Assembly: GCA_039654915.1 (NCBI GenBank)
Contig: CM077599.1
Coordinates: 16,494,501 to 16,558,500, forward strand
Length of the DNA: 64,000 nt
Origin: Aquilaria yunnanensis
Lineage: Eukaryota; Streptophyta; Magnoliopsida; Malvales; Thymelaeaceae
Direction: 5' to 3'
The translations under genes and the position numbers were made by a program. The notes under the pieces were generated by a model. The model was not told the origin of the DNA and ran no database searches. It saw nothing but the letters and a program-made list of their open reading frames with translations. Shown in pieces: positions 2 through 18,771 of the stretch (its first letter is position 1; each line of letters starts with the position of its first letter).

Positions 2-2080
2 ACCACATATGAAGTGAAATACTCAATAGTAGAAAAGTCCTGTTGTGCCCTTGCATGGGTAGCACACCGACTACGACACTACATGCTCAACAACACCACA
101 TTGCTAATCTCCAAGACTGATCCCATTAAGTACATTTTTGAAAAACCAGCTTTATCAGGCAGGATCGCAAAATGGCAAATGCTGTTGTCTGAATACGACA
201 TACAGTATGTCACCCAAAAGGCTGTAAAAGGGAGTGTGATTGCTGAATATCTGGCTGATAGAGCATTGGATGATTATGAGCCAATGAAAATGGAGTTTCC
301 TGATAGAGATATAATGACAATAGAACAAGAAGTCTCTAAAGATGATGAAACATGGAAAATGGCATTCGATGGAGCATCTAATGCTTTGGGACAAGGGATT
401 GGAGCCATACTCATCTCTCCAAGTGGAGAGCAATTCCCTCTTACAGCAAAAATTACATTTCCTTGTACCAACAATATAGTAGAGTATGAGGCATGTGCTA
501 TGGGACTCCAAATGGCACTGGAATTGAAAGTGCGAGATCTCCGAGTTTATGGGGATTCCGCATTAGTCATATATCAAATCAACGGAGAATGGGAGACAAG
601 GGATTCAAAATTGATCCCTTACCAAAAGCTCATACTAGACTTGGCTCGAAAATTCAATAGTATAAGCTTCCATCATCTTCCAAGGGAAGATAATCAAATA
701 CCGGATGCTTTAGCTACTTTGGCTGCTATGTACAAGATCAGTGACCCCGAGCATACTCCTGTGTTCGAGATGAGAATAATAGATTCTCCAGCTTATTGCA
801 TGAGCATCGAAGAAGAATTGGATGGAAAGCCTTGGTATCACGATATCAAGAAATACCTCCAAGAAAGAGTATATCCACCAGAAGTATCAGAAAATGACAA
901 GAAATTTCTACGAAGATTGTCAATGGGTTTTCTTTTAAACCTAGACATACTTTACAAGAAAACCCCAGACTCGATGCTACTTCGCTGTGTAGATACTCAT
1001 GAAGCACGAAAGATCATGGAAGAAGTTCATTCTGGAATATGTGGAGCACACACTAGTGGTCATACTATGGCAAGACAAATAATGAGGGCTGGTTACTATT
1101 GGCTCACATTGGAAAGTGATTGCGTCAATCACGTAAGAAAATGTCACAAATGCCAAATATATGCCAACAAGATCCAAGCTCCACCTGTTCCTCTTAATGT
1201 AACAGCAATACCTTGGCCTTTTGCCATGTGGGGAATCGATGTTATTGGAGCGATTACCCCTAAAGCTTCCAATGGTCACAAATTCATCCTAGTTGCAATT
1301 GACTACTTTACTAAATGGGTAGAAGCTGTGTCTTATGCAAGCGTAACTCAAAAGGTGGTATGCCGGTTCATTAAGAAAGAAATCATTTGTCGCTATGGAC
1401 CGCCAGAGTGTATCATCTCAGACAATGCCACGAACCTGAATAATGCAATGATGCAGACTTTGTGCCGGCAATTCAAAATCAAGCATCTCAATTCAGCACC
1501 TTATCGACCGATGATGAATGGTGCAGTAGAAGCGGCCAATAAAAATATCAAGAGAATTGTTTAAAAGATGATCGTCACTTACAAGGACTGGCATGAGATG
1601 TTACCTTTTGCACTGCATGCTTATAGAACTTCTACCCGTACTTCTACTGGAGCAACACCTTTTTCTCTGGTATACGGTATGGAGGCTGTATTGCCTATCG
1701 AAGTTGAAATTCCTTCATTAAGGGTACTAATGGATACTCAATTAGGAGAAGCAGAATGGGTCAAAGCTAGATACGAGCAATTAAATCTAATTGATGAAAG
1801 AAGAATGATAGCCCTCTGCCATGGGCAACTTTATCAAAGAAGGATGATTCGTGCTTACAACAAAAAGGTTCGCCCACGACAATTTCACGAAGGTGACATA
1901 GTGCTCAAGAAAATTTTACCCATGCAACATGATTCAAGAGGAAAATGGACACCAAATTATGACGGGCCATATGTCGTGAAGAAAGCATTTTCAGGAGGGG
2001 CACTAATTCTGACAGAAATGGATGGACGAGAATTACCGAAGCCAGTAAATTCGGATGCAGTAAAGAAATACTTTGCATAA
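2..2080 (+). pseudogene. Retrotransposon pol fragment: RNase H, second RNase H, integrase (one nonsense codon)
   Basis: Open from the window edge. Residue numbers count from position 14. Residues 1-85 are the end of the usual gypsy RNase H. Residues 114-240 are a second RNase H with the acidic set D119, E157, D181, D231. Residues 339-380 hold the integrase zinc-binding HHCC motif (H346, H350, C377, C380). The integrase core D-D-E is D409, D470, E506. An in-frame TAA at 1562-1564 interrupts the protein just after the core; reading continues in the same frame from 1568 to the stop at 2078-2080 with typical integrase C-terminal sequence (a YGMEAVLP motif and a basic chromatin-side tail). The doubled RNase H points to the Tat lineage. 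This copy is probably non-autonomous for integrase, with a single apparent lesion in the visible part. Confidence 0.9.
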
Positions 2081-3224
2081 TGAAGAAATTTTCGAACAGA
2101 AGGGGAGAAGTGGATACAGGGTTACCAAAGTTTATTTGATCAAAGTTGTCAAAGAGAGCTTTCTTCCCTTACACTTTCATTATCTATCTGTACCCAAGAT
2201 TTTCATATTCTTTTACCCATAAATAAAAGCCAATTCTCTTTAACTTACCTTAGATTCTCACGTTCAAAATGCTAAAGTCGCTTCTATCCAGTTCTTTTCC
2301 TTCAAATCTCACATTCCTACTAGCCTTAAGTGTGCAATAAATTGTGACTTTTGAAGGAAGAATAGTAATAATTAAAACTTAGAAAAAAACAAAGACCGTA
2401 GATTACTTTGATAAGCTTTGTGAATTAAAACAGGTAAGATTGAGGTCCTGCTTTGCGAGCAGCACAGAACATAGGCTAACAAAGAAGAAGGAGTAACAAA
2501 TCTTTGGGAGATAGCCTTGGTGGTAGCCTGAATGATCATTTCAGAAGTCTTAACATGTCTATGTCAGCAGGAAAGAATCATGCTCACGAATATTTCAACA
2601 GGGACAATTATCCAGAGAAGCATAAAATATGAGGCGGGCATTAAAGAAAATTGAGGTCAAAATTCAAAAATAAGGCAAGGAAAGAGGATTTTTGAACAGA
2701 GTTGGGCTTTTGAGACAATGGACAACAGCTGGAAAGCATAAAGAGATTCAATAATAGTCCGAGAAGGAAATCACAAAGAAGATCCAGTAAAGTAAAGCAA
2801 AGACATGAAGAGCTAGATTAAAAAAAAAAAAACATCAGTTACACATGCCTTGCATTCATGCATTTCACATCATGCATGCATGGCTTTTACATAACAGGGA
2901 TCAAATGAAAAGCATGTCCGCAGCATGATTGCAGCAGTATAAGCTGAGATCTTAATGACATCAGCTCTTACTAATTGGACGCATAGCTAATACGCTGGAC
3001 CCAGCCCCATCAGGAATCCAAGGATAAAGCATACAATATCGTCAAAAGCCTGGCAATTGAGGCTACACCTAAAAGAACAGAATTGATGCCAGCTTAGCAG
3101 CATCCAAGATGAGTGATAGCTATCGTCAAAGATAAGGCAGACATCAAGAAATATTGTCGTTGAAAATTCGTCAAAAGCGGACAATGGATTCAATAATCAA
3201 GGACTGAATCGACGTCAGCTGGAT
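2081..3224. other. Non-coding spacer between pol and the cargo cassettes
   Basis: About 1.1 kb without a convincing reading frame. A purine-rich stretch (about 2091-2110, agaaggggagaag) follows directly after pol and could be an internal or former polypurine tract. A short A-run lies near 2820 and ATGCAT-type palindromes lie near 2850-2880. No tRNA, LTR end or other transposon terminus was recognised. Confidence 0.5.
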
Positions 3225-3255
3225 GGAATATCTATCACATCAAAATAAAGTAGGA
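3225..3255 (+). promoter_or_regulatory. Degenerate promoter module upstream of cargo copy 1
   Basis: By position and flanking similarity (the following TTTTCCGGTTAAG and CGGATAC.GTACTC stretch matches the sequence after the TATA box of copy 3), this is the counterpart of the TATA modules of the later copies. Here the TATA core reads caaaataaag instead of CTATAAAT, so the box is weakened. It lies about 120 bp before the start codon. Confidence 0.4.
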
Positions 3256-3371
3256 TTCACTTTTCCGGTTAAGCGGCGGATACGGTACTCCGTGACTCTC
3301 AAGTCGGTTCTCTCAGTTGCCCATAATAACTGATCATTTCCTCCCTCCTTTCTTTTACTTTCTCCTAGAAA

Positions 3372-3920
3372 ATGGATCCTACTTTTTCTGCCTTGCGAAA
3401 ATATTTTCCTTCTCTCCCAATGAACATCCTCAAAAAGATCTACCAAGTTCGCTGTGAACGATTAAGAGCTCTGATGCATAAAGGAATCCCTGAAGATGTG
3501 CGGTGGTTAGTTGAAGCTAAGGTTCGTCTGGCAGGTGAAATCCCAGAGGCATTTGTGTCTCACATGCCTGGTGTAGGCAAAAGCTCTTATGCCAAAAAGC
3601 GAAGAGCGAGGAGACTAGGCGTCTGTCATAAATGCGGACGCTGGACCTGTAATACTAAATGTCGTTCTTTTGGGATGATCTCTGATAATCGAGAAGATAA
3701 AATACGATTCATTAAGAATGGCCTGAGTAAGGACTCATTGGATGATATCCAATTGACTCTTGAGACGCATTCTTGTGGATCCGTGCAACGTGAACTTCTC
3801 GATTTATGGAGCATTTTTCATGAAGAACGAGAACGATACAGTCCCGGGAATCTGACGTTAAACGACCCTATTTGTCAGCTTGTAAGAAAACTGGATGGGA
3901 AGCAAATCCTCGACTCATAG
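3372..3920 (+). CDS. Cargo gene copy 1: 182-aa basic four-cysteine protein, viral NABP-like
   Basis: An intact 182-aa frame, first of four tandem paralogues. Visible layout: a conserved N-terminal helix-rich part (residues 1-60, starting MDPTFSALRKYFPS), then G-x-G-K-S-x-Y-A (68-74), an arginine/lysine block (75-81), and a C-x2-C-x4-C-x3-C putative zinc site (C85, C88, C93, C97), then N-R-E-D-K...F-I-K-N-G-L. The order 'GKS-YA-basic block-CxxC' resembles the small cysteine-rich nucleic-acid-binding proteins of Betaflexiviridae (carlavirus Carla_C4 and vitivirus families), which bind RNA/DNA and act in host gene control or silencing suppression. That link is from memory of the family pattern; cysteine spacing after the first pair differs. 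It is not a retroviral CCHC gag knuckle. Function here is unknown. Confidence 0.7.
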   Translation: MDPTFSALRKYFPSLPMNILKKIYQVRCERLRALMHKGIPEDVRWLVEAKVRLAGEIPEAFVSHMPGVGKSSYAKKRRARRLGVCHKCGRWTCNTKCRSFGMISDNREDKIRFIKNGLSKDSLDDIQLTLETHSCGSVQRELLDLWSIFHEERERYSPGNLTLNDPICQLVRKLDGKQILDS

Positions 3921-4059
3921 AAGCCATTAATCCCGTTACTGGACGTAAAACCAGTGGAAGATGTGAGCCACAGTCACAATCACTGTACATACAATTTATC
4001 ATATTTAAAATTTTCCATTTTTCTTTTAATAATGTATTTGCTCCCGTAAGTGTAATCGA

Positions 4060-4086
4060 CACGTTATCCATTTCATCGCTATAAAT
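4060..4086 (+). promoter_or_regulatory. Promoter module of cargo copy 2 (TATA 4080-4086)
   Basis: Reads TTATCC-ATTTCATCGCTATAAAT. The TATA box is 80 bp before the ATG of copy 2. The same block (TTATC, then TTCATC, then CTATAAAT) recurs before copies 3 and 4 and before the LOG-like gene. TTATC is a reversed GATA motif. Confidence 0.6.
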
Positions 4087-4166
4087 GCATGTTCTTCCAG
4101 TCGGTTATCTAAGTTTCCTTCAATAACTGATTCATTTCCCTCTTCTCTCAAATTCTTCTCTCATCA

Positions 4167-4715
4167 ATGGATTCTACTCTTTCTGCACTGCGAAAATACT
4201 TTCCTTCCTTTCCAATAAAAGTCCTTAAAAAGATCTACCTTGCTAGATGTGAAAGAATCAGAGTTTTTACACGCAAAGGCATTCCCGATAATGTGCAGTG
4301 GATAATTGAAGCTAAGGTCCGTCTGGCGGGTGAAGTTCCAGATGCATTTATGCCCCGCATGCCCGGTTTAGGTAAAAGCCGTTATGCCAAAAGGCGAAGA
4401 GCAAAGAGACTAGGCGTGTGTTATAAATGTGGCCGATGGAATTGTATTACTAAATGTCGCTCTTTAGGATACATCTCCATAAATCGTGAAGATAAAAGAA
4501 AATTCATTAAGAATGGCCTGCGTAAGGAATCTCTGGAAGATATCCGAGAGACTCTTGAAACGCATTCTTGTGGAAAAGTGCAAGGTGAAATTATCAGTTT
4601 ATGGAGGACTTACCATAAAGAACGAAACCGTTACAGTCTTGGGAATGTGACTTTAAACGATCCTGTTTGTCAGTTTGTAAGAAAACTGGATGGGAAGCAA
4701 ATCCCCGACTTATAG
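4167..4715 (+). CDS. Cargo gene copy 2: 182-aa basic four-cysteine protein
   Basis: An intact 182-aa paralogue of the preceding gene, starting MDSTLSALRKYFPS, 795 bp downstream of the start of copy 1. It keeps the G-x-G-K-S-x-Y-A motif, the basic block and all four cysteines (C85, C88, C93, C97, reading CYKCGRWNCITKC). Differences from copy 1 are spread along the protein and many are conservative, which suggests the copies were kept under selection for some time rather than duplicated very recently. It has its own TATA box 80 bp upstream and its own 3' spacer, so it is probably transcribed as a single gene. Identity as viral NABP-like is by motif order only. Confidence 0.7.
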   Translation: MDSTLSALRKYFPSFPIKVLKKIYLARCERIRVFTRKGIPDNVQWIIEAKVRLAGEVPDAFMPRMPGLGKSRYAKRRRAKRLGVCYKCGRWNCITKCRSLGYISINREDKRKFIKNGLRKESLEDIRETLETHSCGKVQGEIISLWRTYHKERNRYSLGNVTLNDPVCQFVRKLDGKQIPDL

Positions 4716-4842
4716 ATGGCATTGAAGCCATTACTGGACATAAATCAGGGGAAGATGAGAGCCACGGTCATGATTCCTGTACATATAAGCTGTCATTTGT
4801 CTTTTCTTTTAATATACTTGTTCCTGTAAGCGTAATTAACAC

Positions 4843-4865
4843 GTTATCCTTTCATCGCTATAAAT
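4843..4865 (+). promoter_or_regulatory. Promoter module of cargo copy 3 (TATA 4859-4865)
   Basis: Reads TTATCCTTTCATCGCTATAAAT, nearly identical to the block before copy 2. The TATA lies 106 bp before the ATG. Confidence 0.6.
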
Positions 4866-4970
4866 GCGTGTTCTTCTTTCCGGTAAAGTAGCGGATGCAA
4901 TACTCTCTGACTCTCAGTTTCCTACAATAACTGATTTCTTCATCTCTTCTCTCAAATTCTTCTTTTATCA

Positions 4971-5519
4971 ATGGATTCTACTCTTTCCGCCATGCGAAAA
5001 TACTTTCCTTCCATCCCAATAAATGTTCTTAAAATGATTTACCAAGCTAGATGTGAAAGGATTAGAGTCTTTATGCACAAAGGCATTCCTGACAATGTGC
5101 GGTGGCTAATTGAAGCTAAGGTTCGTTCAACTGGTGAAGTTCCAGAAGCGTTCTTTCCCCGTATGCCCGGCTTTGGTAAAAGCGCTTATGCCAAAAAGCG
5201 AAGAGCAAAGAGGCTAGGTGTCTGTCATAAATGTGGACGATAGAATTGTAATACTAAATGTCGCTTTTTAGGATACATCTCCAGAAATCATGAAGATAAA
5301 AGAAAATTCATCAAGAATGGCCTGCGTAAGGAATCTTTGGATGATATCCTATTAACTTTTGAAACACATTCTTGTGAAATAGTGCAATGGGAAATTATGG
5401 ATTTATGGTGGACTTTCCGTAAAGAACAGGATCGTTACAGTCTTGGAAATCTAACTTTTAATGACCCTGTTTGCCAGTTTGTGAGAAAACTGGATGGGAA
5501 GCAAATCCCCGACTTATAG
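4971..5519 (+). pseudogene. Cargo gene copy 3: four-cysteine protein with a nonsense codon
   Basis: Third tandem paralogue, 804 bp after copy 2. It is collinear over the full 182-codon length, but a TAG at 5241-5243 replaces the tryptophan codon that follows the first CxxC pair in copies 1 and 2. The product would stop after 90 residues, losing half of the putative zinc site and the C-terminal part. The rest of the frame downstream (to 5519) is still open and similar to the other copies, so the lesion looks recent. Confidence 0.7.
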
Positions 5520-5652
5520 AAGGCATTGAAGCCGTTACTAGACATAAATCAGTGGAAGATGAGAGCCACAGTCATGATTGCTGTACATATAAGCTGTCAT
5601 TTGTCTTTTCTTTTGACAATAATGTACTTGCTTCTGTAAGTGTAATAAACGC

Positions 5653-5676
5653 ATTATCCCTTTCATCACTATAAAT
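5653..5676 (+). promoter_or_regulatory. Promoter module of cargo copy 4 (TATA 5670-5676)
   Basis: Reads TTATCCCTTTCATCACTATAAAT, the same module as for copies 2 and 3. The distance to the ATG at 5736 is about 60 bp. Confidence 0.6.
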
Positions 5677-5735
5677 ATGTGTTAGTTATGTTCGTTTCCT
5701 ACAATCACTAATTTCTTTCTTTGCCTCCTTCATCA

Positions 5736-6284
5736 ATGGAGTCTTCTCTTTCCGCCCTACGAAAGTATTTTCCTTCCTTCCCAATAAATGTTCTTAAAAA
5801 GATTTATCAAGCTAGATGTGAACGATTCAGAGTATTTATGCACAAAGGCATTCCTGATAATGTGCGGTGGCTAATTGAAGCTAAGGTTCGTTCAGCTGGT
5901 GAAGTTCCCGAAGCGTTCTTTCCCCGTATGCCCGGCTTTGGTAAAAGCGCTTATGCCAAAAAAAGAAGAGCAAAGAGGCTAGGCGTTTGTCATAATTGTG
6001 GATGGTGGATTTGCGGCAATAAATGTCGTGCTCCTGGAGTGATCACCAGAAATCGTAATGATAGAATAAGATTCATTAAGAATGGCTTGCGTAAGGAATC
6101 TCTAGAAGATATTCGAGAGGTTCTTGAAGCGCATTCTTGCGGAATAGTGCAATTTGAGGTTGTTGGATTATGGATAATTTTTCAAAAAGAACGAGATCGT
6201 TACAGTCTTGGGAATCTGACCCTAAACGACCCTGTTTGCCAGTTTGTGAGAAAGCTAGATGAGATGCAAATCACCGATTCATAG
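5736..6284 (+). CDS. Cargo gene copy 4: 182-aa basic four-cysteine protein
   Basis: Intact fourth paralogue. I chose the ATG at 5736 because it aligns with the MDSTLSALRKYFPS start of the other copies; an upstream in-frame TTG exists at 5721. It keeps G-F-G-K-S-A-Y-A, the basic block and the four cysteines (CHNCGWWICGNKC). It is closest to copy 3 over residues 15-85 (long identical runs such as FPRMPGFGKSAYAKK), but differs after the zinc site and near the end (EMQITDS instead of GKQIPDL), which hints at gene conversion or mosaic descent. It has its own TATA box and is followed by the 87-bp repeat array. Confidence 0.7.
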   Translation: MESSLSALRKYFPSFPINVLKKIYQARCERFRVFMHKGIPDNVRWLIEAKVRSAGEVPEAFFPRMPGFGKSAYAKKRRAKRLGVCHNCGWWICGNKCRAPGVITRNRNDRIRFIKNGLRKESLEDIREVLEAHSCGIVQFEVVGLWIIFQKERDRYSLGNLTLNDPVCQFVRKLDEMQITDS

Positions 6285-6335
6285 AAAGCATTGAAGCCAT
6301 TACTGGACGCAAAGCCAGTGGAAGACGAGGATCAA

Positions 6336-6871
6336 AGTCACGATTACTGTACGTGCTAGCTGTCGCTTTTGAAATTTTCCTCCCCTTTTGGTAATAATGT
6401 ATCCACTCCTGACGTGAACCAAAGTCACGATTACTGTACGTACTAGCTGTCGCTTTTGAAATTTTTCTCCCCTTTTGGTAATAATGTATCCACTCCTGAC
6501 GTGAACCAAAGTCACGATTACTGTACGTACTAGCTGTCGCTTTTGAAATTTTCCTCCCCTTTCAGCGATAATGTATCCACTCCTGACATGAGCCATAGTT
6601 ACGATTACTATACGTGCTAGCTGTCGCTTTTGAAATTTTCCTCCCCTTTGGCAATAATGTACCCACTCCTGACACGGACTACTGTATATAGCTGCCACTT
6701 TTGAAATTTTCCTTCCCTTCCAACAATCACATACCTACTCCTGACATAAGCTACAGTAGTGACTACTGTACATGCTAGTAGCTATTTTGAAAATTTTCCT
6801 CCTCTTTTAACGATAGTGTACCCATACCTGACCAGAGTCATACTCGTGACTACTGTGTATAGCTGGCAATA
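6336..6871 (+). repeat. 87-bp minisatellite (about 6-7 units) between cargo copy 4 and the LOG-like gene
   Basis: Units begin near 6336, 6423, 6510, 6597, about 6672, 6755 and 6840. Each reads roughly AGTCACGATTACTGTAC...GCTGTCGCTTTTGAAATTTTCC...TAATGTATCCACTCCTGAC. The first three are almost identical; later ones diverge. The same string of words (CAGTCATGATTGCTGTAC, AGCTGTCATTTGTC, AATAATGTACTTGC) occurs once in the spacer before each cysteine-protein cassette. The array is therefore an amplified upstream promoter segment and not unrelated satellite DNA. Confidence 0.8.
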
Positions 6872-6903
6872 ATGTATCCACTCTTGAAAATAAAATTATT
6901 GCC

Positions 6904-6925
6904 TTATCTCTTCATCTCTATAAAT
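6904..6925 (+). promoter_or_regulatory. Promoter module of the LOG-like gene (TATA 6919-6925)
   Basis: Reads TTATCTCTTCATCTCTATAAAT, matching the module before copies 2-4. The upstream words AATAATGTATCCACTC also match. The TATA is only about 34 bp before the ATG at 6959, implying a very short leader. Confidence 0.65.
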
Positions 6926-6958
6926 ATATCCTCTTTTCTCACAAGGATAAGGATAGGA

Positions 6959-7588
6959 ATGGAGAAAACCCCAACTCGTAAATCCCGAAGTATTTGTGTA
7001 TTTTCTGGGGCTTTTCCTGGAAAAGATGAAGAGTATTTAAAGGCAGCCAACCATTTGGGTAGAGTATTAGCTGAGCGAAAAATACATTTAGTTTATGGAG
7101 GAGGTAGTGTCGGATTAATGGGAGGTGTAGCATCAGCAGCATCTTTAGGAGGAAGTCAAGTTTTGGGCATCATCCCTGGACCTTTGAAATTTGTTTCTGG
7201 GGGTACGATTGGAGAAGAATTAGTGGTTAAAAATTTGCAAGAGCGTGTGTTACAAATGCTTTTAAATGCTGATGCTTTTATCGCTCTACCAGGTGGTTTT
7301 GGCACGTTGGGAGAAGTCTTTCAAATTGCTTCCATGGCCCAACTTAATTTGCATAAGAAACCCATTGGGCTTTTAAATGTTAACAATTTTTTTACAGGTC
7401 TGATAGCTTTTATGGATTATGCTATGCAGAAGAATTTCATATCAAGAGTGGCACAGCGAATCATAATATCCGCAACAACTGCTGAAGAATTGCTAGATAA
7501 AATACAAGCTTTTGTTCCTGAACCAGATCCAGCAATGATTCAGATAGACTGGACACGACAGTCTTTCCCGACCAGTTCACTCCCATAA
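6959..7588 (+). CDS. LOG-like cytokinin riboside 5'-monophosphate phosphoribohydrolase, retrotransposon cargo
   Basis: A 209-aa intronless frame. LOG enzymes release active cytokinin bases from their ribotides in one step. Visible family marks: SICVFSGAFPGKD near the N-terminus, LVYGGGSVGLMG, VLGIIPGPL, the signature PGGFGTLGE, and HKKPIGLLNV. Length fits the family (about 210-230 aa). I chose the ATG at 6959 because it starts the family-like sequence just after the TATA box; the frame extends upstream to 6872 but that part covers the TATA box. Oddities: plant LOG genes normally have several introns, and the family's R-K-x-x-M segment reads R-V-L-Q-M, so the arginine is kept but the lysine is lost. 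Capture from a spliced transcript is the simplest origin; a bacterial source is an alternative. Activity is uncertain, but the frame is fully open. Confidence 0.85.
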   Translation: MEKTPTRKSRSICVFSGAFPGKDEEYLKAANHLGRVLAERKIHLVYGGGSVGLMGGVASAASLGGSQVLGIIPGPLKFVSGGTIGEELVVKNLQERVLQMLLNADAFIALPGGFGTLGEVFQIASMAQLNLHKKPIGLLNVNNFFTGLIAFMDYAMQKNFISRVAQRIIISATTAEELLDKIQAFVPEPDPAMIQIDWTRQSFPTSSLP

Positions 7589-8136
7589 TGGTCCTCTACT
7601 CACCCTGTTGAAGTATTGTGGAAGAAAGAAGCGATCTGATCCGTTTTTCTTGTCCTTTAGTTTTATTATCAGCATTTTCTTTCGCGTTTCAGTTTTTCTT
7701 TTCAAGGAATTTCTTTTCTTATAAGATAGTTTCGTCCATGCTGATATTAAAACCATGGGACAATGCCTTTAGGTTGGAATGGCTGAGTAAAGAGTAATTT
7801 TTATTACTCTTGAGACGCATCCTATTAGGTCTACTAGGCATAACATTTTGGGGTAGTTAAGCTTTAACCTTATTTGGATGACATATCTCACAAGGGAATC
7901 TATATTTACTGAAGAAAATATTAGATGAACCTTGGATATTGATTCCAAACATCCGTTCCCTTTACATAATTTGTCAATGTTATTGTCATCATCAAGATTC
8001 ACTCATCTTATCGAAGTTTAAATTTTTGCACTCACCTATTATGAAAATTCACACTTTCGAAGAAAATTATTCCAATTTCAATTGCTTTCATATAAATTTC
8101 GCTCGAGGTCCTAAGGAAAGCTCCTTAGCCTCAAAA
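7589..8136. other. 3' flank of the LOG-like gene
   Basis: About 550 bp, AT-rich, with T-runs that could hold a polyadenylation region. It ends where the tandem arrays begin. No gene was recognised. Confidence 0.4.
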
Positions 8137-8288
8137 TCAATTTTCATCATCGGGGTTTTAAGGATGGAACCTTTGCCTCGAAAACAATCAATTTTCATCA
8201 TCGGGGTTTTAAGGAAGGAACCTTTGCCTCGAAAACAACCAATTTTCATCATCGGGGTTTTAAGGATGGAACCTTTGCCTCGAGATCA
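8137..8288 (+). repeat. 51-bp tandem repeat, 3 copies
   Basis: Three copies start at 8137, 8188 and 8239, each containing TTTTCATCATCGGGGTTTTA and GGAACCTTTGCCTCG. Copies differ by one or two bases. A frame runs through the array but only because the period (51) is a multiple of three. Confidence 0.85.
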
Positions 8289-9049
8289 ATCATTCAGTCC
8301 ATCTTACAACGATAGAACCTTTCCTATCGTTAGAGGTTCCAAGGACCTTTCCTTAAACCTCAAACAAACAATCAATCATTCAGTCCATCTTACAACGATA
8401 GAACCTTTCCTATCGTTAGAGGTTCTAAGGACCTTTCCTTAAACCTCAAACAAACAATCAATCATTCAGTCCATCTTACAACGATAGAACCTTTCCTATC
8501 GTTAGAGGTTCCAAGGACCTTTCCTTAAACCTCAAACAAACAATCAATCATTCAGTCCATCTTACAACGATAGAACCTTTCCTATCGTTAGAGGTTCCAA
8601 GGACCTTTCCTTAAACCTCAAACAAACAATCAATCATTCAGTCCATCTTACAACGATAGAACCTTTCCTATCGTTAGAGGTTCCAAGGACCTTTCCTTAA
8701 ACCTCAAACAAACAATCAATCATTCAGTCCATCTTACAACGATAGAACCTTTCCTATCGTTAGAGGTTCTAAGGATCTTTCCTTAAACCTCAAACAACCA
8801 ATCAATCATTCAGTCCATCTTACAACGATAGAACCTTTCCTATCGTTAGAGGTTCTAAGGACCTTTCCTTAACCTCAAACAAGCAATCAATCATTCAGTC
8901 CATCTTACAACGATAGAACCTTTCCTATCGTTAGAGGTTCTAAGGACCTTTCCTTAAACCTCAAACAAACAATCAATCATTCAGTCCATCTTACAACGAT
9001 AGAACCTTTCCTATCGTTAGAGGTTCTAAGGACCTTTCCTTAAACCTCA
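8289..9049 (+). repeat. 86-bp tandem repeat, about 9 copies, with an internal inverted repeat
   Basis: The word CATTCAGTCC recurs at 8291, 8377, 8463, 8549, 8635, 8721 and so on, a period of 86 (one unit is a base shorter). Units are almost identical. Each carries AACGATAG, an 8-base loop, then CTATCGTT, able to form a stem, followed by a weaker AGGTT/AACCT pair. Such arrays just before the 3' LTR are known from Tat/Ogre elements and can seed satellite DNA. Confidence 0.9.
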
Positions 9050-9138
9050 GAGTTTAGGCGGCGAGAAGGTTTTCAATGCCTTGCTAAGCTGGACGAAATT
9101 TGGTAACTAACTTTGCATACATCATGTCCCATGAAGCA

Positions 9139-9154
9139 TGCAAAGGGGGGCAGC
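9139..9154 (+). other. Polypurine tract preceding the 3' LTR
   Basis: The purine-rich stretch gcaaaggggggcagc ends directly at the TGTTGACA start of the LTR. This is where plus-strand DNA synthesis would be primed. Confidence 0.75.
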
Positions 9155-9654
9155 TGTTGACACCCAATTTCGTCCGGCCATTAAAATAATTTTAAAAAAA
9201 ATTAAATAAAAAAAATTAAATAAAAAAATGTATTATTATTATTGTTATTATTATTACTAAATTTTTTTTTAATTAGTTTAAAATATATATTTTTTTTTAA
9301 GATTTGATATATGTGTGTATATGTGTATGTTTGAAAGAAAAAAAGAAAACTCCATAAAAATGACAAAATTTAAAAGTTTGAGGTGAAAATGACAAAATTA
9401 AGAAGTTTCAGGCAAAATTGACAAATTCTGAAAGTTCCAGGAGCATTTGGCAGTTTGTCACATAAAATTTTGAGCCTGCCGACGTTTTTTGCTCAAATTG
9501 ACAGAAAACGACAAAATTGTCAAAATCAGAAGCTTCAGGAACTTATCCAGAGGCTGAGAGACGTAAAGGACTAAAATTGTCATTTTACCAATTTAAGAGA
9601 TAAGTTTGAAATTTTTTATTAATTTATCCATCAACAGTTCAGCTAAACTTCCTC

Positions 9655-9661
9655 TATAAAT
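9655..9661 (+). promoter_or_regulatory. LTR promoter TATA box
   Basis: CTCTATAAATAGCCCCCC, 500 bp into the LTR and before the CT-rich leader. The position and the following C-rich stretch suit a retrotransposon U3/R boundary, with transcription probably starting near 9690. Confidence 0.6.
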
Positions 9662-9805
9662 AGCCCCCCAAATTTTGTGCTGAACACAGAAAAAAATAGC
9701 AAAAAAACTTAGAGCTCCGTTTCAAAAAAAAGAGAAAATTACAGCCCTTAGCCCCAGCCCTCTTCCCTTCTTCCCCAGAAAGCCAAAATTTTTTTTCACT
9801 GCTGT

Positions 9806-9808
<3 letters not shown>

Positions 9809-9849
<41 letters not shown>

Positions 9850-9947
9850 GTGCCTCTCTCCTCACCGTCGCCGCCTCCGCCGTGCCCGTGCCGCCGTCGC
9901 CCCGCCGTCCCGCCTCCGCCGTGCCCGTGCCGCCGTCGCCCCGCCGG
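9809..9947 (+). repeat. CT microsatellite and 39-bp GC-rich direct repeat in the LTR leader
   Basis: (CT)n covers 9809-9846. A 39-bp period repeat built of CGCCTCCGCCGTGCCCGTG then follows (9872 and 9911). The local GC content is far above the flanks. Long proline/arginine frames on both strands here are by-products of the CCG composition. Confidence 0.8.
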
Positions 9948-10977
9948 CCCGCCGCCGCGTCCCCTTTTCTTTTCCCTCCTTTTCCTTCTTTCTCCTCGGA
10001 CCTCCGCCCCTCGCCGGCCGCTGTCTCCGCCGTGCCGTCGCTCGCCGTCCCGTGCCCGTGCCGCCGCGCCACCCCCGCCGTCCCCCCCTGCCCCTGGCCC
10101 AGCCGCCGCCGGCCGCCAGCCCCTTTCCCCCCTCGCGCTCGCGTCGCGCCTGTACCCAGCAAAATTCAAAAATTTCAACCTTTAGGTAAAATTCTACTTT
10201 AATACTTCATCTTTTCAATTCTTTTCATTTTGGTCACTAATCTTTTTATTTTGTTTTTTTTTCAGAATTAATTACTAACTTTATTTTTTTTACTTGTGTA
10301 TTTATTTGTTTATTATTGTTATTGTTACTAACCTTTTTTTTTTTTTTGTTATTATTAACTTGTTAACTAACTTACTAACAACTAACTTTTAACATTATTA
10401 TTGTTACTAACCTTTTAATTTTTGCATTATTACTAACTTTTATTATTGTTAATTAATTTAATCAACTTGGTTAATTAACAATTAATTAATTTGGCTAAAT
10501 TTTATTATTGTTGTTAATTAATTAATTTAATTAACTTGACTAACTTTTTATTATTGTTGTTAACAATTAATTTAATTAAACTTGGCTAATTTTTATTATT
10601 GTTGTTAATTAATTTAATCTAACTTTTACTAACCTTTTTTTATTGTTATTAACTAACTAATCCAACTAATCTAACTATATTAATTGTGCTAACTTTTATT
10701 ATTATTGTGTTATTAAAGTGGATGGCCAAAAAGCCCCACTTTATTAATTGAATTTTTTTATGATTAAAAGATAAAAAAAGGAATTTTACGTGAATAATTT
10801 TCTAAAGGCTAATAAAAATTACTTTTTTTTATTTTGAAACAAAGTTTTTATTCCTTTTAATAAACAAACATAATGAAATAATTCAAAAATAAAATAAATA
10901 AATAAATAAACATAAAATCATTCTTTTAATACATCTTTAAAATTAATAATTAATGAAATAAAAAAAATTAAAACTCC

Positions 10978-12505
10978 ATGACCAAATGATCCGCCAGGAT
11001 TCATGGCTCGGAAATATTTTTAAATAAAATATATAAATAAATTTTTTCTTTCTAAAAAATAAAAAAAAACTTTAGACTAATATATTAATTATCTATTAAT
11101 ATATAATTTTTTTTAGTTTTCTTTATTAATAAAAAGAATAAAAAGCGTAAAAATTTTGGGTTAATATTTTATTCAGTAATATTTTACTTATTAAATTATA
11201 TAACTTTTTGTTTCTTTTATAAAAATCTTAATCAAATAATTTCAAAATAATACAAAATAAAACAAAAATAATTGAATTTTCTCTTAAATATTTTTGACTT
11301 ATTGATTAGATATATTTTCAGAAATATAAATTAAAATTAAAAAAAAAAATCTTTCATCAAACAAAGAAGAATATAAAAATAAAAATATCAAGACTTTTGT
11401 TTTAAAATACATATAAGTTTTCGGTTAAATAATCTTTTATTCCAAAATAAATTAAATAAATATCAAAACTTTTCTTCTTTTGTTTAAAATTTTTGATTCT
11501 CTTAATAAAAAAAAATAATAAAAAAATAATAAAAAAATAATAAAAAAAAATAAAAATTTTTAGTTCATGGTATATTGGCTGGAAACTGTCTCGTGCCCGC
11601 TTTTGAGCTGCTTCACCTGGTGAAGAGGGTCTGGCTGAGTAACAACGCCCCGTACCATGATCAAAATTTTTATTTTTAAACTCTTTTAAATTAACTTCTT
11701 ATTAAATAAAAATTAATTATTATTTTTTTTAATTCTTTTATAAATTGAGTAATCCTTTAAAATAATAAATATCTTTCATTAAACAAGAAAACAAAAAAAA
11801 GTAAACAAGAAAAAAAAAAGAAAGATAAGAAAAATAAAAGAAAGATAAGAAAGAAAAATAAAAGAAAGATAAGAAAGAAAAGAAAGATAAAAAAAAATAA
11901 AAGAAAAGATAAGAAAAAGAAAAGAAAGAAAGAAAAGACAAGAAAAATAAAAGAAAGATAAGAAAGAAAAATAAAAGAAAGATAAGATAAAGAAAAGAAA
12001 GGAAAGATAAGAAAAAGAAAAGAAAGATAAAAGAAAGAAAAAGAAAAAGAAAAGAAAGAAAGAAAAGAATAAAAAAAGAAAGAAAAGAAAAGAAATTAAA
12101 AGAAATTTAAAAAAAAAAAAAGTAAAATAAGTAAAAAAGAAGAAAATGAAAGAAAGTAAAAAAAGAAGTAAAAATATAAAGATAAATTTTTAGTTAGTAT
12201 TAAAAATCATTCATAAATAAAAAGAATTACCATTTAAAAATTAATTTCATAATAATAAGAATTAAATAATTACGATAAATCAATTTCCATATCCGGATGA
12301 TCCGGCAGGATCTACGGTTTGGAAAATATCAAACTTTTTAAAATAAATAAATTAAATAAATACAAAGATAAAAATCCATGTTTACAATATGGATTAAATT
12401 ATTTAAAATTTCACCAAATTCCGTGTCCAAATGACTCGGCAGAGTCCATGGTTCGGAATCAAATCTTCCGTGTCCAAATGACTCGGCAGAGTCCATGGTT
12501 CGGAA
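10978..12505 (+). repeat. Dispersed 36-bp motif in the LTR (4 copies)
   Basis: A motif like CCAAATGACTCGGCAGAGTC-CATGGTTCGGAA occurs near 10,978, 12,290, 12,421 and 12,469. The last two are nearly identical; the others are variants (GATCCGGCAGGATC). Each centres on an imperfect palindrome (GACTCGGCAGAGTC). It may be a structural or protein-binding element of the LTR RNA or DNA. Confidence 0.5.
11780..12180 (+). repeat. Purine-only low-complexity tract (AAGAAAAGAAAGATAAG)n
   Basis: About 400 bp of almost pure A and G with degenerate GAAAGATAAGAAA words. The long Phe/Ser-rich frame on the minus strand is produced by this composition. Confidence 0.85.
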
Positions 12506-13131: not shown

Positions 13132-13906
13132 GAAAATTGTACAAAAAAAAACTCAGCATAGTTATGGGAGTAGACCGATTTAGTTACTATAATTTTAAGT
13201 GATTCCAATTATATCGCTAAAATCATAGTTTGGGCCCAAATTGGTCATTAATGTTACAGTTTGGTACAGAATATGCTATCGGCCATTAAAAAACCTAACA
13301 ATAATTGTGAGAAATTGTTGATTTTGAAATCTTTGGGCACTTATGTAACTTTTAACAAATTTCAGAAGTTGTGCATAATTTACCATTTTTACTTTTTTGT
13401 GTGACAACAACCTCTATCCTTTATCAAATTTGCCACTGATCCTTATAGAAATAATATTTAAACTAGTTACTGCATTTTGATACTATAGATAACCTGAACC
13501 TTGATCAAATAAAACTCATTCATTCAATATCAATGTATTTCTAATCATCTACTTCCTGATATTGCAGTTTTTTTGTTTCCAAATAATGATATTCAATACT
13601 ATTTCTTTTGGCATCGCCTCCGTCACCAGTGCCAAATTCGGTGGTGAATAATGTAATGACTAGTGCACAAAATAAATGAAAATGGTAAATTACATAAAAT
13701 TTCTAAAATTTGTTAAAAGTTATATTAGTGCCCCAAGATTTCAAAACTAACAACTTCCCACATTTATCGTTAAGCTTTTAACAATCGATGGCATATTCGA
13801 TACTTATTATAACATTAGTGGCTAATTTGGGCAAAAACTATAACTTCAATAATGACTAAATTGGTCTAAACTCATAACTACGGTGATTCTTTTTTGTACC
13901 TTTCCC
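13132..13906. mobile_element. Non-autonomous Mutator-like element with ~250-bp terminal inverted repeats
   Basis: The arms 13,132-13,395 and 13,650-13,906 are inverted copies with many substitutions (for example TTTTAACAAATTTCAGAAGTT against TTTTAACAAATTTTAGAAATT). Flanks AATATAAAA and AAGATAAAA match at 8 of 9 bases, as expected for a 9-bp Mutator target duplication. There is no transposase frame. Confidence 0.65.
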
Positions 13907-14784: not shown

Positions 14785-17700
14785 ATGGGAAAATCTGCTT
14801 CTTGTCTAAAACTCCTTAGGTGCGGCGGCAGTTCGCCCGATAGAGACGACGTCTCCCAGGTATCGACGCGAACCTTTTTCTGTTACTCTTGGACTTGCAT
14901 TTGATCACTTTGCTCTGTTTAAGGAAAGTCAAAGGTTCGCTTGGATCTATTTGTTCTGTCCCGTTACTTGATTTCTGTGGAAATGCAGGAGGAGGAAAGT
15001 AGTTAGACTTTATAGTCTTTCAAGTTGTTACTAATTTAAGATCTGAAAGTTCATTTTTTTGTATTCTTACGATCGGCGCTTTTAGTTTCAAGATGTTGCG
15101 AGCCATTAATTCAGGTTGAATCTCTGAACTTAACTGATCAAGCTTGCTTATTATCGTCCATAATGGAAGATCTGGATATTTCTATTTGATAAGTTTGAAT
15201 TTGAACCTCTATGGATTCCAGATCCACCTTCAAATTTTCCACTTACGTGATAATTTCTGAGAGAAATTTTGATCGTCATTACGGAATATAATGATCGGCG
15301 AGCTATCCACTTTTCAGTTCGATTTCTGTCTCATGTAACAGGAATAATTAATTTATGGGAGTCTGCAGATGTATGTTTAATTCTGCGCATGACAAGGCTC
15401 TGATGTTCATTTTATTGATAAACTGGTATGCCCATGAAGTGAAGGGTCGGACATCATCTTATGTGATTGTCTCAGTATTGTAGATGTATTCTCTACGGTT
15501 ATTGTCGTAACCTAGGGACTCCATGAGGAGAGGGAAAAAGATTGCATACAATGATGTTTTAAGTTTCATTGCAGAACAAAAGCTCCGGTGGAAAAAAGAT
15601 ATGGAGTTTTCGAAAGAGAAGTGAGAGCAATCATCGAGTGCTTATCGACACTGTGATTACTGACACTACTTCTGGACACAAGGAAATCCCAGGACATGTT
15701 GCTGTTAAATTTGAAGAAAGCGAGATCTCTATTGATCACGAGAAAACTTCCACAACTCAAATCATTGAAGAGAAACTGCAACAGGAACCTGCAGAATCAA
15801 GAAACCCTGAGGTGGTTGCTGCTAATGAGACTGAGGTTAGAAAACCTGAACCTGTTACCATTGGCAGTGATGAGACTGAGGTGGAAGTCAATGTGGATGA
15901 GTCTGTCGTCATTGTTCAGACCGCAGTTAGAGGATATTTGGTAACTTTCCTTCTGAAAAACATTTATTTGGAACCAACTCATCAGTAGATTATCTTGCTG
16001 AAAATAAAAATCATATTATAGGCACAAAAAAAACTGAGAAAGCTAAAGAGTGTCATAAAGCTGCAAGCTGCTGTACGTGGCCATCTTGTCAGGAGGCATG
16101 CTATTGGAGCTCTACGCTGTGTTCAGGGCATTGTCAAAATGCAAGTTCTTGTTCGTGCTTGGCTTGCTCACCAATCTGTTGTACAGTCTTCTGAAAAGAA
16201 GCTTGATGGAAAGCATGGAAAAGATGATCAGGTAATTGAATGATTCAGTAACATTGTATTTGGAACTAGATGGCTATTTTCATCAAGGTCATAGTTCAGA
16301 GGGCTTCAGAATTTGCTTTTCTATTTTGGTGGACTAGTAAGTAGCACTTGAGCTACCTTCCTTCGCTAAGTACCTTAAGGTCCATAGTTATATATTCGAG
16401 GTAATATTTTGTTTGAGGCATTACATCGTACTCTTGGGTATATGCTCCTACACTTATGAAACTGGACAGTGATGAAATAATGCTGGACACCATATAAAAA
16501 TCTATTAGACAACTAGGAAAGATATTGGACTGCATACTATTTTAAACAATGTTCAATACATTTCACAAAGTGTCTAATATCATTTATATGGTGCCCAATG
16601 CAATTTCATAAGTGTCGACTTACATATTCCAGGGAGTATCTTAGAATTATCCTTTTCCGTTAGCATCTTCTGAAAGTATGCTGCTTCAGCCATTATGTAC
16701 TATTTTATCCCATTTTTGCCTTTGCTCAAATAACATCCATGCATTACATTTTGTATGAAAATCAGGAGAGGAGTTCACCAAAACCAACAGATTCTGGCAC
16801 TTCAATTGAGAAATTGCTTAGCAATAGGTTCACCCGTCAGGTATGTCAGATCCTTTATTTCTTTTTCCAGTTGTATTAAGTGTCCAAACAGCTACACAGC
16901 GCATGCACTCGCTTCCTATACTGAGACACATTTTTCTTCGAAGCTAATGGAATCAACACCAAAGGCCAAGCCTATCAAAATTAAATGTGATCCGTTGAAA
17001 CCTGGCTCTGCTTGGAATTGGTTGGAGAGGTGGATGTTGGTTTCATCTGTAGTACCAGCCTCAAGACTTGAGTCCACAGCTGAACAGCCTGAAAAAGAGG
17101 CAAATAAGAACCATTACTTCTCTATGGATACTGAAGCTCCATGTAAAGTTACTTGTGAGTCAACTGTTGCGAAGTCTAATGAAGAAGGAACTATGGTGCT
17201 ACCAGAAAGTGAAGAAAACTTGATCTCCTCTGGTTCCAGTGACTCGAAGTTTGACGCATGCCAACCAAATTCAGTGAAAGAGATCTTGGAACATTTTAAG
17301 GTCGAAAACACAAGTATGTCAAACCCTGAAGAGACCTCAGTGGAGTTGCATGCTGTTTCAAATCAGGTGGTGCAAACAGATCTAAATTCTGAACCAGATG
17401 TTAGTTATCGTCTTCATAAACCTGAAACAGATAGTGAACAAGTGAAGCATTCTATTGAACCATCTGTTTCTGAGCAATTAGAAAGTGAGCAAAAGAAGGT
17501 TGTTAATGAATTAAGAAAAGCCGATAACCCTGCATTTAATGTTGCACAGTCTAAATTGGAGGAACTGAGCTCATCTTCCAGAACTGTTAAACGAATGAGT
17601 GCATCCCATCAAGATGTCGCAGCTGAATCAAATGAAGATATTTCTTCTTCGGCTTTTGATACTCTGAGGAGGACAAATGAGCTGAGCATGACAGAAACTC

Positions 17701-18771
17701 CAATCCATGACAAGTTAAGTGTCCAACATGGTGACTCTGAGTTGGGAACTGGTCTTTCTGTTTCTTCAGCTCTTGATTTACCTGGAAGATTGGAAGTTGG
17801 AATAAAAGAAAATGATCACCAAGCTGAAGTTACGCTGTCCAAAAATCACTCTTCTGTGTTGCCTAATTTGTCTAACATGGAAACAAATCACCTAGAGAAA
17901 CTGGTTTCTGATGGAGGTGAGTCTATGGATTCAACCGCAGTTGTATACCCTGCAGAAGTCATGGAAAACCAGCAAAAAGGCACATCAGATATTCAAACTG
18001 AACCGGACTGTGGTGCAGGTCATCAAGTTTACACCTCATATCCAGAAGCTTCTCCCAAAAGCCATACAAGTATCCCATCACATGGAACACCATCTAGTCA
18101 GGTGTCTGTGAAATATAAGAAGGGAAAAAATGAAACAAGCAGCCACAAGCGCAAGTCCCAATCAGCTAATAATGGTTCCCCAGCAAATCCTGGTAATGAC
18201 TCTGGCTCAAGAAGAAGTACTGACCTTTTGCCTAAAGATCAGAGAAATGGTAAAAGACGCAATTCTTTTGGCTCACCAAAACCTGACCCCACTGAACAAG
18301 AACTGAAAGACATTAACAGTGGGAACTCTCTACCTCGTTTCATGCAAGCTACAGAATCTGCGAGAGCTAAGATCAATGCAAATAGCTCACCGAGGTCAAG
18401 TCCAGGTTTGCATGATCAAGATACTTACATCAAGAAGAGGCATTCATTACCAGGGGCAGATGGTAGGCAGGGTTCTCCAATAATCCAGAGATCTTTGTCT
18501 CAGGCACAGCAGGATGCAAAAGAAAAAGGTATGTGTCTTTTTCTTACGTGATTTGAATATACACATACATTTTTGTTTATCTTGTTTAAGACGGTTCAGA
18601 AACCTGTGTCTTCAGACGATACAAACCACCACATGTTTGCTTCTCTTGCTTATTTGGCCCCTGTAACTGTAAAGGAAGAAGGACTGAAAAAGTGTTTTCC
18701 CTGAAGGAGTTATGCCTTAATAATTGATGGATGGAACTATGATTGTTTCAGAGAGGAAATGGCTGCGGTGA
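14785..18771 (+). CDS. IQD32: IQ67-domain (IQD) calmodulin-binding protein, IQD32-like
   Basis: Coding exons: 14,785-14,859; 15,575-15,940; 16,022-16,231; 16,766-16,840; 16,944-18,528; 18,752-18,771, giving 776 aa with every junction GT/AG and in frame. IQD proteins bind calmodulin and link it to microtubules and membranes. The start MGKSASCLKLLRCGG, an IQ67 domain at about residues 136-200 (IVQTAVRGYL, VIKLQAAVRGHLVRRHA, VLVRAWLAHQ), the SAWNWLERWM motif after the domain, a long acidic/Ser-rich region and the basic ERKWLR end all fit the long IQD28-32 subgroup. Exon 2 to exon 3 splits the IQ67 domain, as is usual for this family. The 5' leader is GC-rich; no clear TATA box is seen. The IQD32 symbol is by length, motif layout and position next to ARF5. 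Confidence 0.88.

Follow-up and report, generated by a model that had tools for sequence, protein, structure and literature searches.

Captured domains have been described in plant Gypsy (Ty3/gypsy) long terminal repeat (LTR) retrotransposons. According to passages of one study, Gypsy consensuses from Citrus and poplar contain a YgdH/LOG domain, which agrees with Steinbauerova et al. 2011; the study also reports PMD and G-patch domains in Gypsy elements and a captured 2-ODD (AlkB) enzyme of Phalaenopsis that is active in vitro (PMC9289625). Viral cysteine-rich proteins (CRPs) are described, in passages of two other sources, as silencing suppressors and pathogenicity factors (PMC12172455, PMC8839810), and p12 of the carlavirus CVB is presented as suppressing silencing weakly and as a transcription factor that induces hyperplasia (PMC12172455). 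Here we analyze a 64-kb stretch of the Aquilaria yunnanensis genome (contig CM077599.1; the window), which holds the 3′ part of a Gypsy element of 23,720 bp. Between integrase and the 3′ LTR, all on one strand, this element carries tandem cassettes for a cysteine-rich protein resembling viral nucleic-acid-binding proteins (NABP-like) and a gene resembling those of LOG enzymes. The NABP-LOG module recurs in the same order in all 27 other copies read and is under purifying selection, and its NABP part is also present in a Gypsy element of another type.

Results

The module combines a viral-type and a plant-type gene

The module starts ~1.3 kb past the integrase frame with four tandem units spaced 765–804 bp apart, each with a 182-codon cysteine-rich frame; the units align with each other over up to 2.3 kb at 75–79% identity. 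A first-pass annotation of the window had proposed four cassettes for a basic four-cysteine protein of 182 aa, followed by a LOG-like gene, between integrase and 3′ LTR on a single strand, and its coordinates and gene counts hold (Table 1). All four cassettes are there, but only three are intact, cassette 3 having an in-frame TAG at codon 91. The encoded protein is cysteine-rich and basic, as that annotation had said; what it did not recognize is the carlavirus nucleic-acid-binding type.

The Pfam families Carla_C4 and Viral_NABP cover proteins of carlaviruses and related flexiviruses that are rich in cysteine and bind nucleic acids. Cassette 1 scores 28.9 bits against Carla_C4 (cut-off 20.9) and 28.3 bits against Viral_NABP (cut-off 23), and cassettes 2 and 4 likewise exceed both cut-offs. 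A protein search returned 112 relatives of the NABP, and a profile search 419 at an E value of 1, the best 120 of which were listed. Among 116 relatives, Carla_C4 matches 107 and Viral_NABP 105 at an E value of 0.01, and a basic stretch lies directly ahead of the cysteine cluster in 102. The predicted structure reached a pLDDT of 59.7 from a 28-row alignment, and a pLDDT of 70.6 with a pTM of 0.35 from 116 rows; compared with PDB structures, the model gave no significant match. A sequence search of the PDB with the query A1 returned a single match (E 0.39), PHROGs returned nothing for the NABP, and IMG/VR viral contigs contained no relatives detectable by the NABP alone, by the NABP alignment or by a pattern of the leader that precedes cassette 1.

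LOG enzymes release active cytokinin. The LOG-like gene of the window matches PF03641 (Lysine_decarbox) and TIGR00730 above cut-off, and almost the whole of its product can be aligned with Arabidopsis At2g37210 (E 5e-51) and At5g11950 (E 7e-47). The motif PGGxGTxxE is retained in 112 of 124 LOG rows, two of which are from Arabidopsis. The gene had been called intact, and it is an uninterrupted frame of 209 codons; the start assigned to it, 6872, has to be given up, because a TATA block precedes position 6959 and other copies open with MEKT there, making 6959 the likely start codon. In a quick tree of the 124 rows, which used the two Arabidopsis chains as root and left out two double LOG models (P0114 and P0115), the window LOG is sister to P0113, on a long branch; with just two outgroup rows, the tree says nothing firm about where the LOG came from.

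NABP and LOG keep their order across copies

Copies were sought in the A. yunnanensis genome itself (842 Mb in 345 contigs), where a first look gave, as rough counts, 3310 LOG, 8560 NABP and 17,435 integrase C-terminus candidates. The best 150 of each list were scored, and the copies that we read were picked from these top-scoring lists. Internal stops were absent from 145 of the 150 best LOG rows and from all 150 best NABP rows, and 138 of the 150 best integrase rows have an open integrase frame of at least 1144 aa. In all 27 other copies read, picked by LOG (19), NABP (5) or integrase (3), one or more NABPs are followed by LOG on the same strand, although not all frames are intact. A shared order in other copies was one prediction of the first-pass annotation, and copies without the module, which it had named as grounds for dropping its proposal, did not turn up among these 27.

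The picks differ in what surrounds the module. Every LOG-picked copy has one to three NABPs upstream on the same strand; an LTR start is within reach in 13 of the 19, and 13 have a full LOG frame from ATG. All five NABP-picked copies have a pol 98–100% identical to that of the window, three to four NABPs and a LOG, which is full in three. The integrase-picked copies, chosen from rows whose NABP was outside the NABP list, all have four NABPs and a LOG, in one case cut by the end of the stretch. The module lies 3′ of integrase in each of the nine pol-bearing copies read besides the window, with 1.3–1.6 kb between integrase and the first NABP. A NABP row was also found 1.8–2.0 kb downstream of integrase in 35 of 44 rows, which were chosen by eye and give no rate.

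RNase H and integrase lie upstream in only one LOG-picked copy (L014); in the other 18, no pol was found within the 2.9–4.7 kb read ahead of the first NABP. Gag fragments precede the first NABP in nine of these 18 copies, and of their 47 NABP cassettes, 33 are complete from ATG through all 182 codons. For one of them (L020 with L031), the interior from 5′ LTR to 3′ LTR, searched in two pieces, contains a partial gag, three NABPs and LOG, and no reverse transcriptase (RT) or integrase was found in it. For another (L023), the 8 kb further upstream (L032) show no LTR of the family, just a distant Gypsy pol in the opposite orientation, and the 5′ end was thus not located. The pol-less copies look like non-autonomous partners that lost pol and retained the cargo. 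One pol-less copy, L015, is a mosaic, with a first NABP 100% identical to that of the window, a LOG only 86% identical and no pol seen, which suggests recombination between subfamilies.

The module is under purifying selection

Ratios of nonsynonymous to synonymous substitution rates (dN/dS) were compared at several levels. The six cassette pairs within the window, which were not score-picked, unlike the copy sets, give 0.20–0.42, and the window cassettes give 0.18–0.26 against an NABP from another element (L001, below), with bootstrap limits up to 0.40. Among copies, the median for LOG is 0.29 (90 pairs), and dN/dS is 0.21 for the first NABP cassette (64 pairs, 0.10–0.66) and 0.33 for the last (118 pairs, 0.13–0.94). 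Comparing pol-bearing with pol-less copies yields means of 0.25 for LOG (4 x 13 copies, 52 pairs) and 0.15 for NABP (6 x 8, 48 pairs); within the pol-less copies the means are 0.31 and 0.19, and within the pol-bearing copies 0.07 (6 pairs) and 0.22 (15 pairs). The NABP groups excluded L016, L018, L021, L024 and L014 and copies without a full frame. Mean dN/dS spans 0.07–0.34 across all groupings, pol-less copies included, and the module is under purifying selection; an absence of purifying selection in every copy, the other outcome held to count against the earlier proposal, did not occur in the copies read.

A shared TATA block suggests internal promoters

The same block, ending CATCNCTATAAATR, lies ahead of cassettes 2, 3 and 4 and of LOG. 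Its four exact matches in the window are these four, and at one mismatch or fewer there are seven, a number reached in none of 100 shuffles. The exact block also precedes LOG in all five NABP-picked and all three integrase-picked copies. Because the block repeats before cassettes 2–4 and LOG, it suggests that each of these genes has a separate, predicted promoter. Repeats of ~87 bp ahead of LOG resemble, by eye, the region between cassettes and are perhaps an amplified promoter or 3′ end.

NABP occurs in a second Gypsy type and in other plants

A contig scan of a genome collection gave L001, a 3.3-kb plant retrotransposon contig filed in a metagenome-assembled genome of Candidatus Nomurabacteria; its presence there is contamination of the bacterial genome collection. 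L001 has an intact NABP 204 bp behind its integrase region, in which no second RNase H was found, and we take the element to be Athila-like. Among the frames listed for the remaining 1 kb of the contig, none is LOG-like. DNA homology between the cassettes and L001 begins and ends near the cassette edges and includes the leader of cassette 1, where 61 of 75 sites are identical; for fourfold sites the figure is 25 of 47 (Fisher p 0.001). The leader is therefore a non-coding stretch conserved across two kinds of element. A structured RNA was considered for it and rejected: folding was no better than that of shuffles (z -0.26, -0.72, 0.21), and Rfam had no match in 2080–12000.

NABPs from named organisms, among the matches listed, are all from plants (Rhamnella, Xanthoceras, Populus, Acer, Citrus, Gossypium and Orobanche). 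Six gene models fuse an NABP with an incomplete LOG (P0065, P0080, P0086, P0095, P0109 and P0110); they come from Rhamnella, Gossypium, Acer and, three times, Citrus, and the LOG part of P0080 comprises 28 residues. Two Rhamnella models (P0056 and P0104) join an apparent L001-type integrase C-terminus to NABP. Between the lists of contigs of at least 2 kb with an NABP (43) and with a LOG (21), three exactly equal sizes are in common; 0.15 are expected under jitter, and 8 of 20,000 runs reach three. In an Orobanche minor model (P0288), NABP is joined to a stretch that has no Pfam match and that, by its motif, resembles a Gypsy protease.

The carrier is a complete Tat/Ogre-type element

The element has two LTRs of ~3.6 kb, the 5′ one starting 10.9 kb ahead of the window. 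It is complete, because a 5-bp target-site duplication, GTTAA, borders the outer ends of both LTRs. Aligned over 2650 + 979 columns, the LTRs differ by seven mismatches, the remaining differences being gaps. With plant substitution rates of 7e-9 to 1.3e-8 per site per year, seven changes in ~3570 LTR sites date the insertion to roughly 0.1 million years ago.

Pfam orders the pol frame as RT_RNaseH (2–65), RVT_3 (130–240), H2C2 and rve, with an additional RNase H domain separating RT-RNase H from integrase, as in Tat/Ogre elements. The integrase of the window copy has a stop at 1562–1564. Ahead of gag lies an extra open reading frame (ORF1) of 431 aa of the PMD/DUF7745 type (ORF1 and gag occupy L029:3237-4529 and 5090-8452); in gag, Pfam gives only Retrotrans_gag and G-patch, and a C-X2-C-X4-H-X4-C (CCHC) knuckle is absent from the gag, RT and ORF1 frames scanned. 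Since it combines two RNase H domains and a PMD/DUF7745 ORF1 before gag with giant size (23.7 kb) and multi-kb LTRs, the element fits, by its sequence features, the Tat/Ogre lineage of Ty3/gypsy, in agreement with the earlier assignment of the module as cargo of such an element.

Behind the 3′ LTR, an inverted repeat of ~178 bp with arms 79% alike (window 13225–13401 and 13666–13841) may be a small DNA transposon. Probable host genes near the insertion encode a DUF4005 protein, presumably IQD-like, and a putative methyltransferase (16755–18551 and 32780–34033).

Table 1. Features of the element within the window (window coordinates).
Feature	Position	Strand	Evidence
RNase H (two RNase H-type domains) and integrase	2..1564	+	Pfam RT_RNaseH, RVT_3, Integrase_H2C2, rve
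Remainder of integrase frame past stop	1568..2080	+	100% identical in 150 best integrase rows of 17,435
Conserved leader, NABP cassette 1	3261..3371	+	DNA comparison with L001
NABP-like cassette 1, 182 aa, intact	3372..3920	+	ORF, Pfam, protein search
TATA block, cassette 2	4074..4087	+	
NABP-like cassette 2, 182 aa, intact	4167..4715	+	ORF, Pfam
TATA block, cassette 3	4853..4866	+	
NABP-like cassette 3, in-frame TAG	4971..5519	+	ORF reading
TATA block, cassette 4	5664..5677	+	
NABP-like cassette 4, 182 aa, intact	5736..6284	+	ORF, Pfam
Array of ~87-bp repeats ahead of LOG	6324..6865	+	
TATA block, LOG	6913..6926	+	
LOG-like gene, uninterrupted, PGGxGTxxE	6959..7588	+	PF03641, TIGR00730, Arabidopsis alignment
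86-bp tandem repeats, LOG to 3′ LTR	8199..9143	+	
3′ LTR, then GTTAA	9155..12780	+	LTR alignment

Discussion

A possible role for the module

We tentatively read the locus as a 23.7-kb Tat/Ogre element whose selected NABP-LOG module, with its own predicted promoters, would aid the element by acting on host silencing or transcription and on cytokinin, a reading to which we give somewhat less than even weight. Under this model, the NABP and LOG genes would be expressed from their internal promoters. NABP would counter host silencing or alter transcription in the nucleus; the nuclear site of action is suggested by the basic stretch that adjoins the cysteine cluster. LOG, a putative phosphoribohydrolase, would raise active cytokinin in dividing cells, and these cells, rich in cytokinin, would give rise to the germ line, through which new copies are passed on. 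By keeping host cells dividing and weakening silencing, the kit could thus increase element output in the cells that found the germ line. Such host manipulation is plausible, and the cell-division idea gains some weight because CVB p12 is described, in passages of one source, as a hyperplasia-inducing transcription factor (PMC12172455). A broader form of the model, that plant Gypsy elements share a growth-and-defense effector kit, part viral and part host, which pairs tandem cassettes for a zinc-binding regulator of RNA-virus type with an enzyme that activates cytokinin, has its own promoters, passed between Athila-like and Tat/Ogre-like lineages, steers the host toward proliferation and weak silencing to the gain of element copying in founder cells of the germ line, and would be a counterpart of the genes of tumor-inducing plasmids, strikes us as rather unlikely.

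Several observations weigh against the reading that we favor. The cysteine spacing is C-X2-C-X4-C-X3-C in 98 of 116 NABPs, and the carlavirus finger C-X2-C-X12-C-X4-C (the motif as given in a passage of PMC8839810) occurs in none of the 116. A Foldseek comparison with the BFVD viral models returned nothing significant: the top three matches are flexivirus silencing suppressors at E 0.36–0.40, and four named flexivirus suppressors or NABPs among the top six of 41, at E 0.36 and worse, are a hint only. Because the spacing departs from that of carlaviruses and the fold match is not significant, we call the protein NABP-like, homologous by profile, rather than a carlavirus CRP. The LOG scores 99.2 bits against the NCBIfam equivalog CtkRMPhLog, whose cut-off is 300, and the Arabidopsis stretch MHQRKAEM is changed in it, with the R retained and the K gone. 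Full LOG frames from ATG are lacking in 6 of the 19 LOG-picked and 2 of the 5 NABP-picked copies, and individual LOG pairs span dN/dS values from 0.08 to 1.27. Copy-level dN/dS leans low, because only full frames entered and LOG copies were score-picked. The TATA block pattern was composed after the sequence had been read, and bare CTATAAAT is only mildly enriched (10 occurrences against 5.4 expected; 10 were reached in 3 of 100 shuffles); cassette 1 has no such block, and just 10 of the 19 LOG-picked copies have the exact block before LOG. Finally, pol-less copies retain NABP and LOG, which a benefit acting purely in trans on the element does not predict.

The main rival places the module's function inside the element: NABP would serve element RNA or cDNA in place of the zinc knuckle of the nucleocapsid, and the LOG fold would assist by handling nucleotides or through a link to RNA, leaving host growth unaffected. 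The lack of a CCHC knuckle in the frames scanned, including a gag in which Pfam finds only Retrotrans_gag and G-patch, fits this explanation, as do the basic, cysteine-rich NABP and the conserved leader before it, which could be a packaging or translation signal. We judge it unlikely, since the retained PGGxGTxxE motif suggests catalysis and the viral homologues are described, in the passages cited, chiefly as silencing suppressors and CVB p12 as a transcription factor (PMC12172455, PMC8839810). Alternatively, the module could be an anti-defense kit in which NABP mainly suppresses RNA silencing and LOG suppresses or reroutes the host response, growth effects being a by-product. It is chiefly silencing that keeps plant retrotransposons in check; viral CRPs are described, again in passages, as its suppressors (PMC12172455, PMC8839810). 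The basic stretch of NABP, however, hints at a nuclear location, and the sequence offers no reason for a LOG in such a kit, so that we regard this version as improbable.

Two further explanations carry little weight. Capture by template switching is common and could have left host and viral sequences as functionless passengers, to which broken frames in several copies and LOG pairs with dN/dS above 1 would correspond; low mean dN/dS in all groupings, the invariant order in 27 copies and conservation across plant genera and in a second element type make neutrality very improbable. The module might also be an independent mobile element lying within the retrotransposon. NABP in two Gypsy types implies that it likely moved at least once, and homology to L001 has its limits near the edges of the cassettes, but no inverted repeat of at least 60 nt surrounds the module (shorter ends would escape this search), and all nine further pol-bearing copies have it downstream of integrase; we find nesting barely credible.

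Retrotransposons are usually thought to deal with their host through their copying machinery only; a selected, multi-copy module of this kind, if the reading is true, would mean that they also have effector-like genes. It would show that genes have passed between RNA viruses and retrotransposons, in one direction or the other, and would predict altered cytokinin chemistry in a genome whose LOG copies may number in the thousands.

Comparison with known systems

The first-pass annotation knew of no LOG gene in such elements; LOG-type domains in Gypsy elements are already in print, as passages of PMC9289625 attest. The terms 'carlavirus' and 'nucleic acid binding' occur zero times in PMC9289625, and we found no published viral NABP or NABP-LOG module in retrotransposons in the open-licence PMC literature. 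What therefore appears to be new is the partner of viral type, as well as the module as such, the selection acting on it and its presence in two kinds of element. The Citrus and Populus Ty3/gypsy elements share with the Aquilaria element a LOG-type domain inside a plant Gypsy LTR retrotransposon; the passages describing them mention no viral-type NABP, module, shared TATA block or selection test (PMC9289625).

Compared with plant LOG enzymes, the element LOG is alike in exceeding the TIGR00730 cut-off and in its PGGxGTxxE motif, and unlike in being one uninterrupted frame, in its many copies and in falling under the NCBIfam equivalog cut-off. The LOG cases of 2011 reportedly lie in Athila-like elements, whereas here the two RNase H domains are those of Tat. 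Carlavirus cysteine-rich p12/NABP proteins (Carla_C4) share the basic stretch followed by a cysteine cluster and the Pfam match above cut-off; in contrast, the protein described here has 182 aa and another cysteine spacing and is encoded by a retrotransposon. Ogre/Tat elements with a PMD-type ORF1 are likewise very large, with long LTRs, two RNase H domains and ORF1 before gag, to which the Aquilaria element adds the NABP-LOG module 3′ of integrase. AlkB domains, for their part, occur in flexiviruses too. The Phalaenopsis 2-ODD (AlkB) giants, described in passages as 25-kb Tat-type Gypsy elements with a captured domain (PMC9289625), are similar in size and lineage and differ in their cargo, which in Aquilaria includes one gene of viral family type, present as one to four tandem cassettes.

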